DNA from: a virus
Length of the DNA: 24,010 nt
Reading direction: 5' to 3' (one strand)
Virus record (IMG/VR): IMGVR_UViG_3300035157_000820
Span: 1-24,010 of that record
Below, in pieces: positions 4,581 to 20,965 of this stretch; position 1 is the stretch's first letter; each line of letters starts with the position of its first letter. The notes under the pieces are model-generated. The model was not told the origin of the DNA. It saw only the letters and a list, made by a program, of their open reading frames with translations, and did no database searches. Made by a program: the position numbers and the translations under genes.

Positions 4581-4600
4581 AATTTATTTTACTTTCTAAC

Positions 4601-4628
4601 TTGACAATTATATAATCATGACTATGTT
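4601..4628 (+). promoter_or_regulatory. Sigma70-like promoter for the replication operon
   Basis: TTGACA at 4601-4606, 16-bp spacer, TATGTT at 4623-4628 (4/6 to TATAAT). Predicted initiation is near 4635, about 18 nt before ATG 4653. The leader carries AGAAAG (4641-4646) as the only Shine-Dalgarno-like sequence. The prediction is from consensus only. Confidence 0.55.
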
Positions 4629-4637
4629 GTTTGTCAA
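4609..4637 (-). promoter_or_regulatory. Sigma70-like promoter for the SNF2 helicase gene
   Basis: Read on the minus strand: TTGACA (complement of 4632-4637), 17-bp spacer, TATATA (complement of 4609-4614). An overlapping TATAAT two bases further on gives a 19-bp spacer. Predicted initiation is near 4602, about 22 nt before the start codon at 4580. It shares the inverted repeat with the opposing promoter, so the two are probably co-regulated. Confidence 0.6.
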
Positions 4638-4652
4638 CATAGAAAGTATGAA

Positions 4653-5060
4653 ATGAGAAATAAATTATTTGAATTATATAGGCCAAAACAATTGGCAGAA
4701 TTTTTAGAGTTTAACAAGGCAAATCCCACTGAAAGCTTTGTCTATGTTCTACAGCATCCACCAAGAAATATAAATATTTTAACGGCATCTGACTATGGAT
4801 ATTTGGTTATTTGTTTACCAGAAAATTCACAGATGTTATTTAGTCCAGCACCTTTTATACATAAAATGAGAAAAAATTTACGAGATTTCAGAGAAACAGA
4901 TTATATACTTTGTTCTGGTGATCCTGCTATAATAGGATTATCTACAGCTATTGTAAGTGATATAACACAAGGTAAATTTAATTTGCTGAAATGGGATAGA
5001 CAAGAAACAAGATACTATCCTCTGTCATTTAATTTATTTGAGAAAGGAGAAGATGAATGA
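4653..5060 (+). CDS. Conserved phage protein of unknown function, first gene of the replication operon
   Basis: 135 residues, no catalytic motif that I recognise. The protein is mixed alpha/beta in appearance, rich in Phe, Leu and Tyr, with no signal peptide or membrane helix and an acidic C-terminus (EKGEDE). It begins about 18 nt after a predicted start site and has only a weak AGAAAG ribosome site. A competing ATG at 4648 leads to an immediate stop (ATG AAA TGA) in another frame. The stop overlaps the next start as ATGA (5057-5060). The position suggests an early role such as host takeover or replication accessory, but this is inference from place only. Confidence 0.8.
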   Translation: MRNKLFELYRPKQLAEFLEFNKANPTESFVYVLQHPPRNINILTASDYGYLVICLPENSQMLFSPAPFIHKMRKNLRDFRETDYILCSGDPAIIGLSTAIVSDITQGKFNLLKWDRQETRYYPLSFNLFEKGEDE

Positions 5061-5617
5061 CAAAATTAACACTAGACGAACTAGAATCAGACCAACAGAA
5101 CTTAGTCGAAAAGACAGATATTGAGACGTTGGCTTATCATTGTAAAGAACTTCAAGCGTACGAGGAAGAAATCGAACAACTTGAAGAACAATTAAAATAT
5201 AAAAAAGAAAAAAAAGAAAAGATTAGTTCAGAGATTATACCCAATATTCTAGCAGAACAGGGTCTAAGTTCTTTGAAATTAGCTGATGGCAGTAGCATTG
5301 ATGTAAGAAAAAAATATCGATGCACCATTAAAAAAGATGAAATGGAATCAGCTTACAACTGGCTTCGAGAAAACGGACTGGATGACATCATTAAAAACGA
5401 GGTCTCTGTACAGTTCGGAAAAGGCGAAGACTCAAGAGCACAGGAATTACTGTCTCTTGCAGGGCTAAATGGTTATGAACCTACTCAAAGACAAAAGGTA
5501 GAACCTATGACTTTGATGGCCCTCTATAGGGAGCGTGTCGAGGCCGGCCTCGACATGCCTTCCGATTCCTTTAATTTATTTATACAGGATGAAACTAAGA
5601 TTAGCCGGAAAAAATGA
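5057..5617 (+). CDS. Coiled-coil protein of unknown function upstream of the SSB-like gene
   Basis: 186 residues. Residues 28-60 form a strongly charged Glu/Lys coiled coil. This is followed by a compact region with SSLKLADGSSIDVRKKYR (71-88), which looks like a beta-hairpin and recurs in phage genes next to single-strand-binding proteins. No enzyme motif is seen. A role as a replication/recombination accessory is inferred from its neighbours, an unknown early protein upstream and an SSB-like protein downstream. The codons for about residues 160-167 (RVEAGLDM) contain a perfect 20-bp GC-rich palindrome at 5536-5555, unlike anything else in this AT-rich gene. A short 24-nt gap with AAGGAG follows before the next gene. 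Confidence 0.8.
   Translation: MTKLTLDELESDQQNLVEKTDIETLAYHCKELQAYEEEIEQLEEQLKYKKEKKEKISSEIIPNILAEQGLSSLKLADGSSIDVRKKYRCTIKKDEMESAYNWLRENGLDDIIKNEVSVQFGKGEDSRAQELLSLAGLNGYEPTQRQKVEPMTLMALYRERVEAGLDMPSDSFNLFIQDETKISRKK
5536..5555. repeat. Perfect 20-bp GC-rich palindrome inside a coding gene
   Basis: TGTCGAGGCCGGCCTCGACA is identical to its reverse complement, and 14 of its 20 bases are G or C in an AT-rich genome. Flanking bases 5533-5534 and 5557-5558 also pair after a single G/T mismatch, extending the dyad to 5533-5558. There is no loop, so a protein-binding site or cruciform fits better than a terminator. In the gene it encodes roughly R-V-E-A-G-L-D. Confidence 0.9.
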
Positions 5618-5641
5618 ATCATGAACAAGGAGAAATGACAA

Positions 5642-6409
5642 ATGAATAATGAAGTAGCGAAAAAAACAAAAAGTGATGTAGCTTTGAACACTATGTTTGA
5701 AGCTGATCAAGCTGCAGGTATGCAGGGAATGGGGCAAGAAGATTTTGCTATGCCGTTCTTACGTATACTAGGCATGCAATCCCCGGAAGTAAATGATCGG
5801 GACGCCAAATATGTAGAAGGTGCAAAAGCAGGAATGATATTTAATACTGTGACTAAATCGACATATGATGGGGTGAAGGGTATCAATGTAATTCCTTGCG
5901 GATACAAAAGGGAGTACGTTGAGTGGAGTGATAGAGGCGAGGGCACTAGTGCTCCTGTAGCTATACACTCTGTTGAAAGTGGTATAATAAAAGAAGCCAC
6001 AAGAGGAGCTGACTGGAAGGATAGACTACCTAATGGTAACTATCTTGAGAACACAGCATCTTACTTTGTGTTGACAGAGGATTTGGAGACAGCATTAATC
6101 TCTATGAAGTCGACACAATTAAAAGTGAGCCGTACGTGGAACACGATGATGAATACCATCAAACTGAAAGGTAAGGAGGGTCTATTCATACCGGCTGCTT
6201 ACAGTCACATTTACAACTTAAGTACAGTGCAACAGTCTAACGACAAGGGAACTTGGTTTGGTTGGGCTGTAGCAAAAGTAGGTCCCGTACAAGATAAAGA
6301 TACGTACGATGCCGCTCGAGCTTTTGCTTCTAGCGTTTCCTCTGGAATGGTAGAGGCAAAACATGGTGCAAGCGAAACTGAGTCTAAGAAAGACGAAGTC
6401 CCGTTTTAA
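5642..6409 (+). CDS. Single-stranded DNA-binding protein-like replication protein with EVPF tail
   Basis: 255 residues. The body is a predicted beta-rich fold (residues about 35-225), followed by a disordered, charged linker and the C-terminal tail KKDEVPF. An acidic tail ending in Pro-Phe is the protein-interaction tip of bacterial SSB (DDDIPF) and of many phage SSBs. No standard OB-fold signature can be proved by eye, so the call rests on the tail, the size and the position before a primase and helicase. It should coat single-stranded DNA during replication and recruit partners. The start is supported by AAGGAG at 5627-5632, nine bases upstream; an ATG at 5635 only opens a four-codon frame. 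The downstream stem-loop at 6418-6453 could protect the 3' end of this mRNA segment. Confidence 0.7.
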   Translation: MNNEVAKKTKSDVALNTMFEADQAAGMQGMGQEDFAMPFLRILGMQSPEVNDRDAKYVEGAKAGMIFNTVTKSTYDGVKGINVIPCGYKREYVEWSDRGEGTSAPVAIHSVESGIIKEATRGADWKDRLPNGNYLENTASYFVLTEDLETALISMKSTQLKVSRTWNTMMNTIKLKGKEGLFIPAAYSHIYNLSTVQQSNDKGTWFGWAVAKVGPVQDKDTYDAARAFASSVSSGMVEAKHGASETESKKDEVPF

Positions 6410-16919: not shown

Positions 16920-17617
16920 TTTTTGGATTAGGTTTTAACGTTGTTAACATAGATAATAAAATACAAATATCTATTAGTAAAGATACTGAGGTAGGACAAC
17001 GAATAAAAAGAGAGGGTGAAGCTGAATACACAAAAGATGCTACTGGCACACAAATAATTGTACCACACCCTGATCATGATTTTTTAATTAAATCTAATAC
17101 AAATTATTTTATTTTAGGTGGAGGTATAAAAGTTCGGTATGAATGGAATGACACCAGTAAATTTCAAGACGAACATAAGGAAATCTACATGAACTTATTA
17201 AAAGAAAGTCAGGCTGATTTATCAATTCCTTTTGATGATGCTAAATATAATCATGGTGAAGGGTTTATGGAGCACGAAGTATTTCATGCTAATAGGTCAA
17301 AAAAATGGCTGGCTTCTCCTTTGCCATATGAACCATATTGTACAAACGCAGAAATAGAAGTTATACAAAAAGACACACTTATATTGTGTCCTATGCAACA
17401 TGCAGCTGGTTGGACGTTTGAACACATAGATGTAGAAAGAGGAGAGACAATAGAGTCTAATAAACAAGGACAAGAAATGTATATAGTTTTTGGTATGCGC
17501 TGCACTGTAGGAGATAAAGAAATAGATCAATTCGAAGTTAAAAAACAAACAAGCACACAACTACAGATTACAAACGCAAGTTATAATTTAGGAACGTTAG
17601 TTCGTATATACAAATGA
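16916..17617 (+). CDS. Cupin-like protein of unknown function
   Basis: 233 residues. Residues 165-193 (GWTFEHIDVERGETIESNKQ, then GQEMYIVFG) look like a cupin or beta-barrel core with the usual Gly-turns. However, a complete two-His-plus-Glu metal motif is not evident, so metal binding is uncertain. The N-terminal half has no recognised domain. Candidate ligands upstream are H120 and H124 (FMEHEVFHAN). It could be a sugar- or small-molecule-binding protein, or part of a receptor-binding assembly given the adhesin-like gene two positions upstream. ATGA overlaps link it to the desaturase gene downstream. Confidence 0.55.
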   Translation: MIFGLGFNVVNIDNKIQISISKDTEVGQRIKREGEAEYTKDATGTQIIVPHPDHDFLIKSNTNYFILGGGIKVRYEWNDTSKFQDEHKEIYMNLLKESQADLSIPFDDAKYNHGEGFMEHEVFHANRSKKWLASPLPYEPYCTNAEIEVIQKDTLILCPMQHAAGWTFEHIDVERGETIESNKQGQEMYIVFGMRCTVGDKEIDQFEVKKQTSTQLQITNASYNLGTLVRIYK

Positions 17618-18369
17618 CCGAGATCTTACCGCAAAAGTATGACAGGTTGTACCTGACGGTGACGTATCTAATTATTACATTTTTTACGTTGGGTTGGGTG
17701 TGGCAATACATATGGAACTTAGACCCAAGATTAATTATTACATACCTGCTGGCTGTCCTAGTGGGCACACTTGGTACAAACGTTGGTTATCATAGACTTT
17801 TTACACATAAAGCATTTAAGACATCTAAGTTTTGGTATAACACTCTGGCCTTCTTTGGGGTGTACGGAACAGTGTCCAGTTCTATAGGATGGGTGGCTAC
17901 GCACCTGCACCATCACAGATACCTGGGTAAAGACATGGACCCGCACACGCCGTGGACCGAGAAAAATAAATTTAAAGGATGGCTCAGAACATTCTTACCT
18001 CTGTGGATGAACGTACCACAAGCTGACGCTAAGTTACTAATTGCTATGCGACACCTGCTGCAGAACAAATGGATTATGTTCTTGCATAAGTGGGCGCCAA
18101 TACAGGTCTACGCAACGGGGACCGCGATTTGGTTATTGTTTGGCTTTGACTGGTTCCTGCTCGCTTTTTGTTTTCCTATCGGCTACAGTTTAATCAGCCA
18201 GTTTTGTGTCAACTGGTTTCACTATGACATAGAGTTTGTACACAGAAACAGATGGTGGTTAAATATATTGATAGGTGGTGAAGGTAATCACAAGCATCAC
18301 CATGACTTTCCACGTGACTATTCTAAAGACTGGCCTATAAAATATTTTATAGATTGGATAAAAGTATGA
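17614..18369 (+). CDS. Membrane fatty-acid desaturase (first of two)
   Basis: 251 residues with all three histidine boxes of acyl-lipid/acyl-CoA delta-9-type desaturases: HRLFTH (60-65), HLHHH (97-101) and HKHHH (226-230). Membrane helices are predicted at about 12-33, 40-57, 78-92 and 168-195. The di-iron enzyme would introduce a double bond into fatty acyl chains in the host inner membrane. It needs an electron donor that the phage does not visibly encode. Lipid desaturases are known in cyanophages. The region is visibly less AT-rich than the gene just upstream, suggesting separate acquisition. It is coupled to the second desaturase. Confidence 0.93.
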   Translation: MTEILPQKYDRLYLTVTYLIITFFTLGWVWQYIWNLDPRLIITYLLAVLVGTLGTNVGYHRLFTHKAFKTSKFWYNTLAFFGVYGTVSSSIGWVATHLHHHRYLGKDMDPHTPWTEKNKFKGWLRTFLPLWMNVPQADAKLLIAMRHLLQNKWIMFLHKWAPIQVYATGTAIWLLFGFDWFLLAFCFPIGYSLISQFCVNWFHYDIEFVHRNRWWLNILIGGEGNHKHHHDFPRDYSKDWPIKYFIDWIKV

Positions 18370-19106
18370 CCTGGTATCAAAAGTTTCCTCAATATTATAT
18401 TTCACTTTGTTACATAGTTAGTGTTGCATTGTTTCTTGTTTTTATTTGGGACTATCTTGACTGGCGGCTGCTGGTAACCTGGGCGGTGCTACAATTCTTA
18501 GGTATGGTTGGCATCAACATGGCCTATCATCATCTGATATGTCACAAGTCATATAAAACAAATACCTTTTGGAAATTTATCTTGACCTACATTGGCGGTA
18601 TCGCAACACAGTCTAGTCCTAACGAATGGGCCTTGGTGCATTTGACACATCACAGATACACTGACACAGAACGCGACCCGCACACGCCTAATCTATCAGG
18701 TAATAAAATCATGGGTGTGCTACGCGCCGCACTGCCGGTGTTTATGAACATAACCATAACCGATACTAAAATTAACCTGATGGCGAAGAAGTCTTTTGAT
18801 GACCCTATCTATAGATTCTTTGACTACACTCACATGCTCTGGTTTCATGGGACGTGGATCGGGGTTTATTATCTATTTGGTTTTGACTGGCTTATGATTG
18901 CATTTGTATTCCCAATTGCTTTGGCTCACATAGGCGAGACGGTTATAAACTGTTTCCATTTTGATATGGAATCAGTCAGGCGTAATGCTTGGTTTTGGAA
19001 TATACTGATTGTTGGAGCTGGCTATCATGCAAAACATCACGATACTCCCAGAGATTACAATACAGACTGGCCAGTTAGTAAAATTATTGATATGATAAAA
19101 ACATGA
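18366..19106 (+). CDS. Membrane fatty-acid desaturase (second of two)
   Basis: 246 residues from ATG 18366, which overlaps the first desaturase stop as ATGA; an in-frame ATG at 18354 is not preferred. The histidine boxes are HHLICH (55-60), HLTHH (92-96) and HAKHH (221-225). Layout and length match the first copy, and both share a PRDY segment followed by DWP near the C-terminus, but they are well diverged. They could be an old tandem duplication or two acquisitions, and might act on different positions or chain lengths. Sequence cannot decide regioselectivity. The GC level is similar to that of the first copy. Confidence 0.93.
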   Translation: MTWYQKFPQYYISLCYIVSVALFLVFIWDYLDWRLLVTWAVLQFLGMVGINMAYHHLICHKSYKTNTFWKFILTYIGGIATQSSPNEWALVHLTHHRYTDTERDPHTPNLSGNKIMGVLRAALPVFMNITITDTKINLMAKKSFDDPIYRFFDYTHMLWFHGTWIGVYYLFGFDWLMIAFVFPIALAHIGETVINCFHFDMESVRRNAWFWNILIVGAGYHAKHHDTPRDYNTDWPVSKIIDMIKT

Positions 19107-20138: not shown

Positions 20139-20328
20139 TTATGGATACACAGACTACGAAGCAAAACAATTCAACGGTCGTGGTGAGTGCCTTGATTACA
20201 TCTGGGACAACAAGGCTCTTCTTGTTGAAGAACTGTTCAGAATCCATGGTATCCACGAAGACGGACGTAGACTCAAGACATGGGGCTTCTACTGTGAAGC
20301 AAAAAGAGTAGAGACTACCGACATATAG
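20080..20328 (+). CDS. Small protein with hydrophobic N-terminus
   Basis: 82 residues. The first 15 residues (MNSTIVWIITAMLWY) are hydrophobic and could be a short signal sequence or membrane anchor. The rest is soluble with two cysteines, C37 (GECLDY) and C72 (GFYCEAK), which could form a disulphide if exported. No family is recognised. It is the last gene of the accessory operon and overlaps the nuclease gene by 59 bases. A 241-bp non-coding region follows. Confidence 0.6.
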   Translation: MNSTIVWIITAMLWYQGPGDYGYTDYEAKQFNGRGECLDYIWDNKALLVEELFRIHGIHEDGRRLKTWGFYCEAKRVETTDI

Positions 20329-20565
20329 TAGAATTTTTGACCCCCAAAGTTTTTTTAAAAAAAATTTTCTACGAAAAAAGCTGGTATATTGGTAGTTTTA
20401 TGGTCAAGTTATTGTATTTATTAATGGTTTTGCCTACCAGATACTAAAAATTTACTGGTATACTCTGGTCGGTTTAGGCAATTTTTCCTAGTTTTTGTAC
20501 ACTTGGCGCGCACGCGAAAATTGGTATGAAATGTATTGACTTAGGGGGTCAAATTCTCACTATAT
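20323..20565. repeat. Inverted repeat bounding a 241-bp structured non-coding region
   Basis: The left arm (20323-20345) reads atatagtagaattt then ttgaccccc. The reverse complement of the right arm (20544-20565) reads atatagtgagaattt then gaccccc. They match after one inserted and two deleted bases. Between them lie a T7/A8-type tract (20350-20365), a hairpin TACCAG/CTGGTA (20435-20440 with 20455-20460), an outer pair TTGCCTA/TAGGCAA (20430-20436 with 20475-20481) and an alternating GC block GGCGCGCACGCG (20505-20516). No gene is present. It could be an origin, promoter or packaging-related site. Confidence 0.75.
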
Positions 20566-20566
20566 A
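20536..20566 (+). promoter_or_regulatory. Possible promoter before the metallopeptidase gene
   Basis: TTGACT (20536-20541) and TATATA (20561-20566) are 19 bp apart, a weak sigma70 match. Within it, CTCACTATA (20556-20564) equals the core of the T7 RNA polymerase promoter, although flanking bases differ. Either would initiate almost at ATG 20570, giving a leaderless or nearly leaderless message. Both readings are tentative. Confidence 0.35.
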
Positions 20567-20569
20567 GCA

Positions 20570-20965
20570 ATGCCAAAAAAATTAGCAAAGAAAATACGTC
20601 CAGTCGTTGCTTCTCTTCCAACCGAAAAGATTGTTAAAGTAGGTTATAGAGATATACAGATCAAATACGTAAGTCCTGATTTTAAAACAGACGACATGAC
20701 AGAAAGCTATGGAGAGTATAGACCTCGTGAAGGCGTCATCTTGTTGCAGAAAGTTTTATGTGGACAAGAGATGGTCAACACTACATTTCATGAGATTATG
20801 CATGCATGTGTATATGTGTCTGGACTCAATCAAGCCAACGGTCCGTTAAAAGAAGATGACAATGAAGAAATTGTTGTTAATAATCTATCTAATATGATAA
20901 TGGGTGTATTCAGGGACAATCCCTGGTTGCTAGATTACATAAAAAATAATATAAATAAAATATAA
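20570..20965 (+). CDS. HExxH zinc metallopeptidase-like protein
   Basis: 131 residues. HEIMH (74-78) is the zinc-binding HExxH helix, and E99 or E100 in DDNEEIVVNN is a plausible third ligand, as in gluzincin- or ImmA-like peptidases. The N-terminus is basic and resembles a short beta-sheet before the active-site helix. It may process a phage or host protein; the substrate is unknown. There is no Shine-Dalgarno sequence before ATG 20570 and the next in-frame ATG (residue 43) would delete part of the fold, so leaderless or weak initiation is likely. It is the first gene after the non-coding region. Confidence 0.75.
   Translation: MPKKLAKKIRPVVASLPTEKIVKVGYRDIQIKYVSPDFKTDDMTESYGEYRPREGVILLQKVLCGQEMVNTTFHEIMHACVYVSGLNQANGPLKEDDNEEIVVNNLSNMIMGVFRDNPWLLDYIKNNINKI

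Follow-up and report, generated by a model that had tools for sequence, protein, structure and literature searches.

Within the 24,010-nt stretch of viral DNA analysed here (the window), a perfect palindrome lies inside a coding gene, and the question this locus raises is whether the palindrome is a by-product of the encoded protein or functions as nucleic acid, and if the latter, whether as duplex DNA or as RNA. The 20-mer TGTCGAGGCCGGCCTCGACA at 5536-5555 is fully self-complementary, and the dyad around it reaches 5533-5558 with one mismatch, a G.T (G.U in RNA); on both points the sequence-only reading was borne out. There is no longer perfect palindrome in the window, the runners-up being 18 and 16 bp long and AT-rich. 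Preceded by CG and followed by TG, TGTCGAGGCCGGCCTCGACA is read in frame as R-VEAGLD-M, its first base completing the arginine codon and its last opening the ATG, and it occupies codons 160-167 of the gp33-like ORF (Table 1), 60 bases 5' of the stop. This ORF directly precedes the so-called SSB-like gene, as had been proposed. The earlier estimate of 0.02 such dyads by chance stands for an even base composition and rises to ~ 0.04 at 37% G+C (24010 x 0.267^10). That question is moot in any case, since the exact 20-mer and the stem pairs are conserved across relatives.

Table 1. Genes, signals and RNA helices around the palindrome, in window coordinates
Feature	Positions	Strand	Description
gp33-like host gene	5057-5617	+	Pam3 gp33-like, 186 aa; PF23984 E=1.7e-32, phrog_2378 E=2.5e-44
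Candidate helix P2	CTTC 5363-5366 / GAAG 5426-5429	+	encloses helix A; from RNAalifold
Helix A (plausible)	5381-5386/5402-5407	+	extends to 5392/5396; imperfect in the window itself
Helix B (likely)	CAAGAG 5433-5438 / CTCTTG 5454-5459	+	most relatives have CAAGG/CCTTG, with a one-base shift
Stem C (palindrome as RNA)	5533-5543/5548-5558	+	11 bp, loop 5544-5547 (CCGG); 5535.5556 is G.U
Stem C outer extension	5529-5531/5560-5562	+	beyond an A.C mismatch
Probable pseudoknot, strand 1	5544-5548	+	hairpin C loop CCGGC; pairs with 5604-5608
Probable pseudoknot, strand 2	5604-5608	+	GCCGG; codons 183-184, just 5' of the gp33-like stop
Shine-Dalgarno of gp34-like gene	5627-5632	+	AAGGAG, in the A-rich leader 3' of the pseudoknot; from sequence
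gp34-like gene	5642-6409	+	Pam3 gp34-like, 255 aa; PF23977 E=8.6e-69
Hairpin E	6418-6429/6442-6453	+	12 bp, CCCCCC-containing loop, 3' of the gp34-like stop

The exact 20-mer was found in 67 other IMG/VR viral contigs, always in the gp33-like gene (some as contig-end fragments). An exact search selects for the motif itself, so relatives were also fetched with a protein-level pattern that leaves synonymous bases free, and further ones with patterns covering other parts of the gp33-like protein; one protein-pattern search found 565, of which 80 were taken in. After duplicate removal, the sample comprised 188 ORFs with a readable segment, and 163 of these carried the hairpin, which was counted as present where 6 or more of the 7 outer pairs, and 8 or more of all 10, could form. 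Relatives that share the peptide RERVEAGLDMP did not vary freely at its synonymous sites: the stem was kept in 82 of 83, which supports the proposal that the dyad functions at the nucleic-acid level and is no by-product of the protein. With codons drawn at random from background usage, the main stem pairs would be kept less than 1% of the time. Codon choice was correspondingly narrow, with CGT for R160 in 163/163 (background 17%), GAG for E159 in 162/163 (background 36%), CTC for L165 in 141/163 (87%; background 5%) and GCC for A163 in 112 of 133 alanines (background 7%). The palindrome's flanks, GAGCG and TGCC, are nearly invariant among relatives. Each large genome tested that has the element has one copy. 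One clade, with the peptide RERIEAGKEMP, lacks both the hairpin and the pairing of its loop with the tail of the gene, yet retains the CTT and CAAG/CTTG positions of the upstream helices described below. Elsewhere in the gp33-like gene, codons 71-73 (about 5267-5275) were also unusually fixed, with TCT at S72 in 96% and TTG at L73 in 71%, and no pairing partner was identified for them.

Whether the constraint acts on DNA or RNA can be read from how the dyad decays. A perfect DNA dyad is present in 81 of the 163 hairpin-bearing sequences. The asymmetry in the other 82 consists almost entirely of sense-strand G.U pairs or loop changes, and in 78 of them every one of the seven outer stem pairs is a standard RNA pair; as the 163 were picked by a pairing criterion, the informative part of these counts is the type of imperfection. 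At 5537/5554, where the protein permits all four transition combinations, we observed 93 G-C, 50 A-T, 20 G.T, and 0 A.C. Across stem C pairs where both are possible, there were 102 G.U and 0 A.C, and because a duplex-DNA site would treat the two alike, RNA is favoured over duplex DNA. In helix A, too, G.U was far above A.C. Paired changes were observed within silent variation (GTC...GAC to ATC...GAT) and across amino-acid replacements, where CTC becomes CTG when E is replaced by Q (CAG) and CTT when E is replaced by K (AAG), Q-T (CAA ACC) is accompanied by GGT TTG, and a change of A to S (TCC) by GGG or GGA. In total, four stem C pairs show compensatory changes, and 99% of cells are paired, versus 27-62% with slid partners. 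With the paired columns left out of tree building, 5537/5554 changes 21 times on the tree, and in an independent-pairs test the partner went the same way 10.5 times and the opposite way 0 times (p about 0.001). The outer extension pairs in a weighted 97% (5530/5561) and 99% (5531/5560), as mixtures of G-C, A-U, and G.U, and the RNA folding z was -4.6.

Comparison of the relatives thus makes stem C, with its 11 bp and four covarying pairs, secure, and its identity as a sense-strand RNA structure under selection with compensatory evolution is well supported. The absence of a loop, which had suggested a dimer-binding site, a recombination site, or a cruciform, is only apparent, as CCGG at the centre forms the loop in RNA; those three suggestions fit poorly with an imperfect DNA dyad in half of the relatives. 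The view that the palindrome is not a terminator was sound: no intrinsic terminator was called at 5533-5558, and the hairpin runs on into CTTCCGATTCC instead of a T-run.

Stem C is probably one part of a larger fold. In an unbiased helix scan that set every column of codons 60-185 against every other, the top helices were, in order, stem C, helix A, and the pairing of the hairpin C loop with the tail, and the same three led under a tree null in which columns evolve independently. An R-scape-like omnibus G-test with a tree null gave no pair below E 0.05, and as it had no power, we used tree-null pairing, independent pairs, shuffles, and slid structures. Pooled over four helices, 94.8% of cells pair, versus 36-47% with slid partners, and 0 of 500 shuffles attained any of five covariation measures of the four-helix structure. 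RNAalifold, unaided, recovered helices A, B, and C and added P2. Rfam 15 gave zero matches at the gathering threshold in the window and only chance-level matches around the element, and no tRNA or tmRNA was found. The element is therefore a structured RNA new to Rfam, of a known kind (coding-region cis-acting RNA), with a function that we infer.

The loop CCGGC and the tail GCCGG probably form an H-type pseudoknot. Tail codons 183 (AGC) and 184 (CGG) are strongly favoured over background, and loop and tail vary in matched combinations: CCGGC/GCCGG (93), CCGGG/CCCGG (9), CCGGG/CTCGG (6) and, more rarely, CTGGC/GCCAG (5, with R184 replaced by Q) and ACGGG/CCCGT (2). This helix has just two covarying pairs, within the range of a control scan of the gp34 gene, whose best helix had three; G.U and A.C are about equal in it (22:20), and two hairpin-bearing clades lack the loop-tail pairing. 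By the measure of that control helix, the pseudoknot and helix A are less certain than stem C. Helix A, which scores slightly above the control gene, is plausible: 5383 and 5405 have undergone 38 and 17 substitutions and are still paired in 91%. Helix B is likely, judging from L134 as CTT in 163/163, a nearly invariant AAC AAG, and a CAAGG that persists in a shifted frame where N-K becomes T-R or S-R; its tip pair 5443/5450 changed the same way 7.2 times and the opposite way 0 times (p 0.016). Pairing in P2 would explain the near-invariant CTT of L103 (161/163), but P2 shows no covariation and is therefore only suggestive. With helices A, B, and P2 added, the whole structure may span ~ 250 nt of coding sequence. 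TGGCTT (5360) was also tried as a partner for AAGCCG at the tail and rejected, as this pairing fails in the ACC-CGG clade.

The genes 3' of the gp33-like gene are, in order, the gp34-like gene, a small ORF, an AEP-type primase, a UvrD-type helicase, an HNH endonuclease-like gene and, at a greater distance, DNA polymerase A. Among named phages, the closest found was the seawater phage 023Pt_psg01, whose gp33 is 55% identical; 023Pt names denote HTVC023P-type pelagiphages (PMC9599517). To judge from title and abstract, no Pam3 paper that a literature search listed deals with the gp33 and gp34 proteins. The gp34-like protein is a putative single-strand-binding protein: the best PDB matches of its AlphaFold2 model (pLDDT 88.5) include the OB-fold ssDNA binders PrgE, RPA, and Teb1 OB-A, though these matches are weak (E 0.014 to 0.2). 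By sequence it matched no SSB family, and a PDB profile search and NCBIfam gave nothing useful; most of its neighbours among viral proteins lack a characterised function, and a few SSBs by annotation stand further down the list. Three other regions of the window were noted. At 4590-4648, between a divergent SNF2-type helicase gene (- strand) and the gp32-like gene, an imperfect 18-nt inverted repeat with TTGACA-like boxes is a probable divergent promoter/operator of the early operon. At 17614-19106, two related ORFs in tandem carry histidine-rich motifs of the HHHRY/LTHHRY type and look like fatty-acid desaturases, and at 20320-20570 there are ~ 250 nt of non-coding sequence that contain A/T runs (palindrome TTTTTTTAAAAAAA) and have no feature assigned to them.

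The position of the element relative to the gp34 start varies with its structure. Where the hairpin and the loop-tail pairing are both present, 127 of the 133 gp33-gp34 gaps measured are 10-30 nt long; without the loop-tail pairing the gap is mostly at most 9 nt, with many Shine-Dalgarno sequences inside gp33, a correlation that is confounded by phylogeny. Where the tail itself serves as the gp34 Shine-Dalgarno (AAGGAG inside gp33, gap ~ 2 nt), the loop-tail pairing is absent. The gp34 leader of the relatives has a mean of 53% A and a mean of 72% unpaired bases, and the window's own Shine-Dalgarno is predicted to be partly paired. Sequestration of the Shine-Dalgarno by 5558-5582 was considered and found not to be specific. 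The element lies directly upstream of gp34 in nearly all relatives. In two loci, L009 and L010, a gene of ~ 150-163 aa sits exactly between gp33 and gp34 (L009:1516-2004, L010:1509-1958), and the element remains with gp33, 460-490 nt from gp34.

The reading that we place first, tentatively and as possible rather than probable, is that the element is a cis-acting mRNA control of gp34 arranged like the T4 gene 32 operator. In T4, the gene 32 product binds a pseudoknot and then the unstructured leader, and the operator runs from pseudoknot to unstructured ribosome-binding region to Ssb gene (PMC535899). The likeness of arrangement makes autogenous control of gp34 the leading mechanism by analogy. 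The palindrome would encode the stem of a stem-loop in a polycistronic early mRNA, and the loop CCGGC would fold onto GCCGG at the end of the gp33-like cistron to give an H-type pseudoknot with a stem 1 of 10-11 bp, a stem 2 of 5 bp, and one loop of ~ 45 bases. An A-rich leader of ~ 33 bases, with the gp34-like Shine-Dalgarno and start codon, would follow. Once free gp34-like protein exceeded the available ssDNA, it would nucleate on the pseudoknot and spread along the unstructured leader, blocking its own translation and so acting in cis on its own production. The place of gp34 in a replication module, ahead of the AEP-type primase, helicase, and DNA polymerase A, supports this model, while the extra gene in L009 and L010 and the weak OB-fold match of gp34 (E above 0.01) count against it.

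Hairpin E would bound the other side of the gp34 cistron. Across about 165 related loci, most relatives have a counterpart of 11-17 bp, 5-20 nt past the gp34-like stop. Its stems are strongly covarying, unrelated in sequence between clades with the pairing kept, and its loop in the main clade is CTCCCCC/ATCCCCC. In the window's clade, the hairpin runs into the beginning of the following ORF (MGETRKHIPPYASL). This strong hairpin 3' of the gp34 stop makes mRNA processing or stability the main rival explanation, in which hairpins flanking gp34 would be RNase III-like cut sites or exonuclease barriers that yield a separate, stable gp34 mRNA. Strong conserved hairpins on both sides of gp34, an extended stem of 11 bp, and the persistence of the element where another gene comes next (L009, L010) all fit, as does the fully variable sequence of hairpin E with its stem kept, which is expected of a structure-only role. 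We nevertheless consider it somewhat unlikely, as the loop-tail pseudoknot and the near-invariant stem positions exceed the needs of a stability hairpin, and ribosomes open hairpins inside translated regions.

A role in replication, either as a structured transcript (an origin RNA such as ColE1 RNA II) or as a sense-strand ssDNA hairpin for a primase or strand initiation, is considerably less probable. It agrees with a single-copy element at the head of the replication genes that does not require adjacency to gp34, and the sense-strand tolerance of G.U/G.T suits a single strand of RNA or ssDNA. However, the site showed neither iterons nor the A+T-rich features of an origin, the window's skew profile gave no sign of an origin, and the covariation with bases just 5' of the stop, together with the gp34-spacing link, suggests an mRNA role. 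We give the same low standing to an effect on the ribosome translating gp33, through a co-translational-folding pause or programmed frameshifting. The element and its upstream helices do lie within the coding sequence, and the pseudoknot's dimensions recall those of frameshift pseudoknots such as that of IBV, but a slippery heptamer is missing upstream, and neither of the two other frames has a conserved extension. A programmed frameshift site was rejected, with no conserved heptamer and no conserved alternative frame among relatives. Least probable by a clear step is a double-stranded palindrome that binds a protein dimer or serves recombination or an endonuclease. The perfect dyads and nearly invariant flanks would suit it, but the broken dyads that keep their RNA pairs, the G.T without A.C at 5537/5554, and the covariation of the palindrome's centre with a site 56 bases away all speak against it.

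Few regulatory RNA structures have been described in uncultured marine phages, and this one lies within a coding sequence, out of sight of annotation. With amino-acid replacements matched by silent, pair-restoring changes, dual coding is unusually clear here for a DNA phage. For a phage family related to the pelagiphages, the element is a sign that replication genes are controlled after transcription. It also suggests that these phages use gp34-like proteins as their single-strand-binding proteins, and it makes the idea of a T4 gene 32-like autogenous pseudoknot testable far outside the T4 group.

Among known systems, the T4/RB69 gene 32 operator likewise has a pseudoknot 5' of a single-strand-binding gene (a probable one here) that belongs to a replication module, and its ribosome-binding site likewise sits in an A-rich leader after the pseudoknot. 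The T4 pseudoknot, too, shares sequence with a reading frame upstream, segG (PMC535899). The present element differs in its much larger stem 1 (10-11 bp), its 45-base loop, its location wholly inside a conserved upstream gene, and its possible extra helices, A and B having no T4 counterpart; no sequence link was found between gp34 and gp32. Coding-region elements of RNA viruses, such as HCV SL9266/PK (PMC4357731), share the stem-loop in coding sequence, the loop engaged in a long-range pseudoknot, and detection through synonymous constraint and covariation, whereas here the carrier is a dsDNA-phage mRNA, for which a role in RNA-genome replication or packaging is impossible. Like the Rfam RNAs found by comparative genomics (Weinberg 2010, PMC2864571), the element was found by covariation in environmental sequences; unlike the catalogued ones, it belongs to a window in which no Rfam 15 family reaches its gathering score. 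It is somewhat unlikely that these features amount to a new class, in which a ~ 250-nt multi-helix pseudoknotted RNA wholly within a conserved marine-phage gene and a second covarying hairpin after the next gene would act as one RNA control unit on both sides of a phage single-strand-binding protein that has gone unrecognised.
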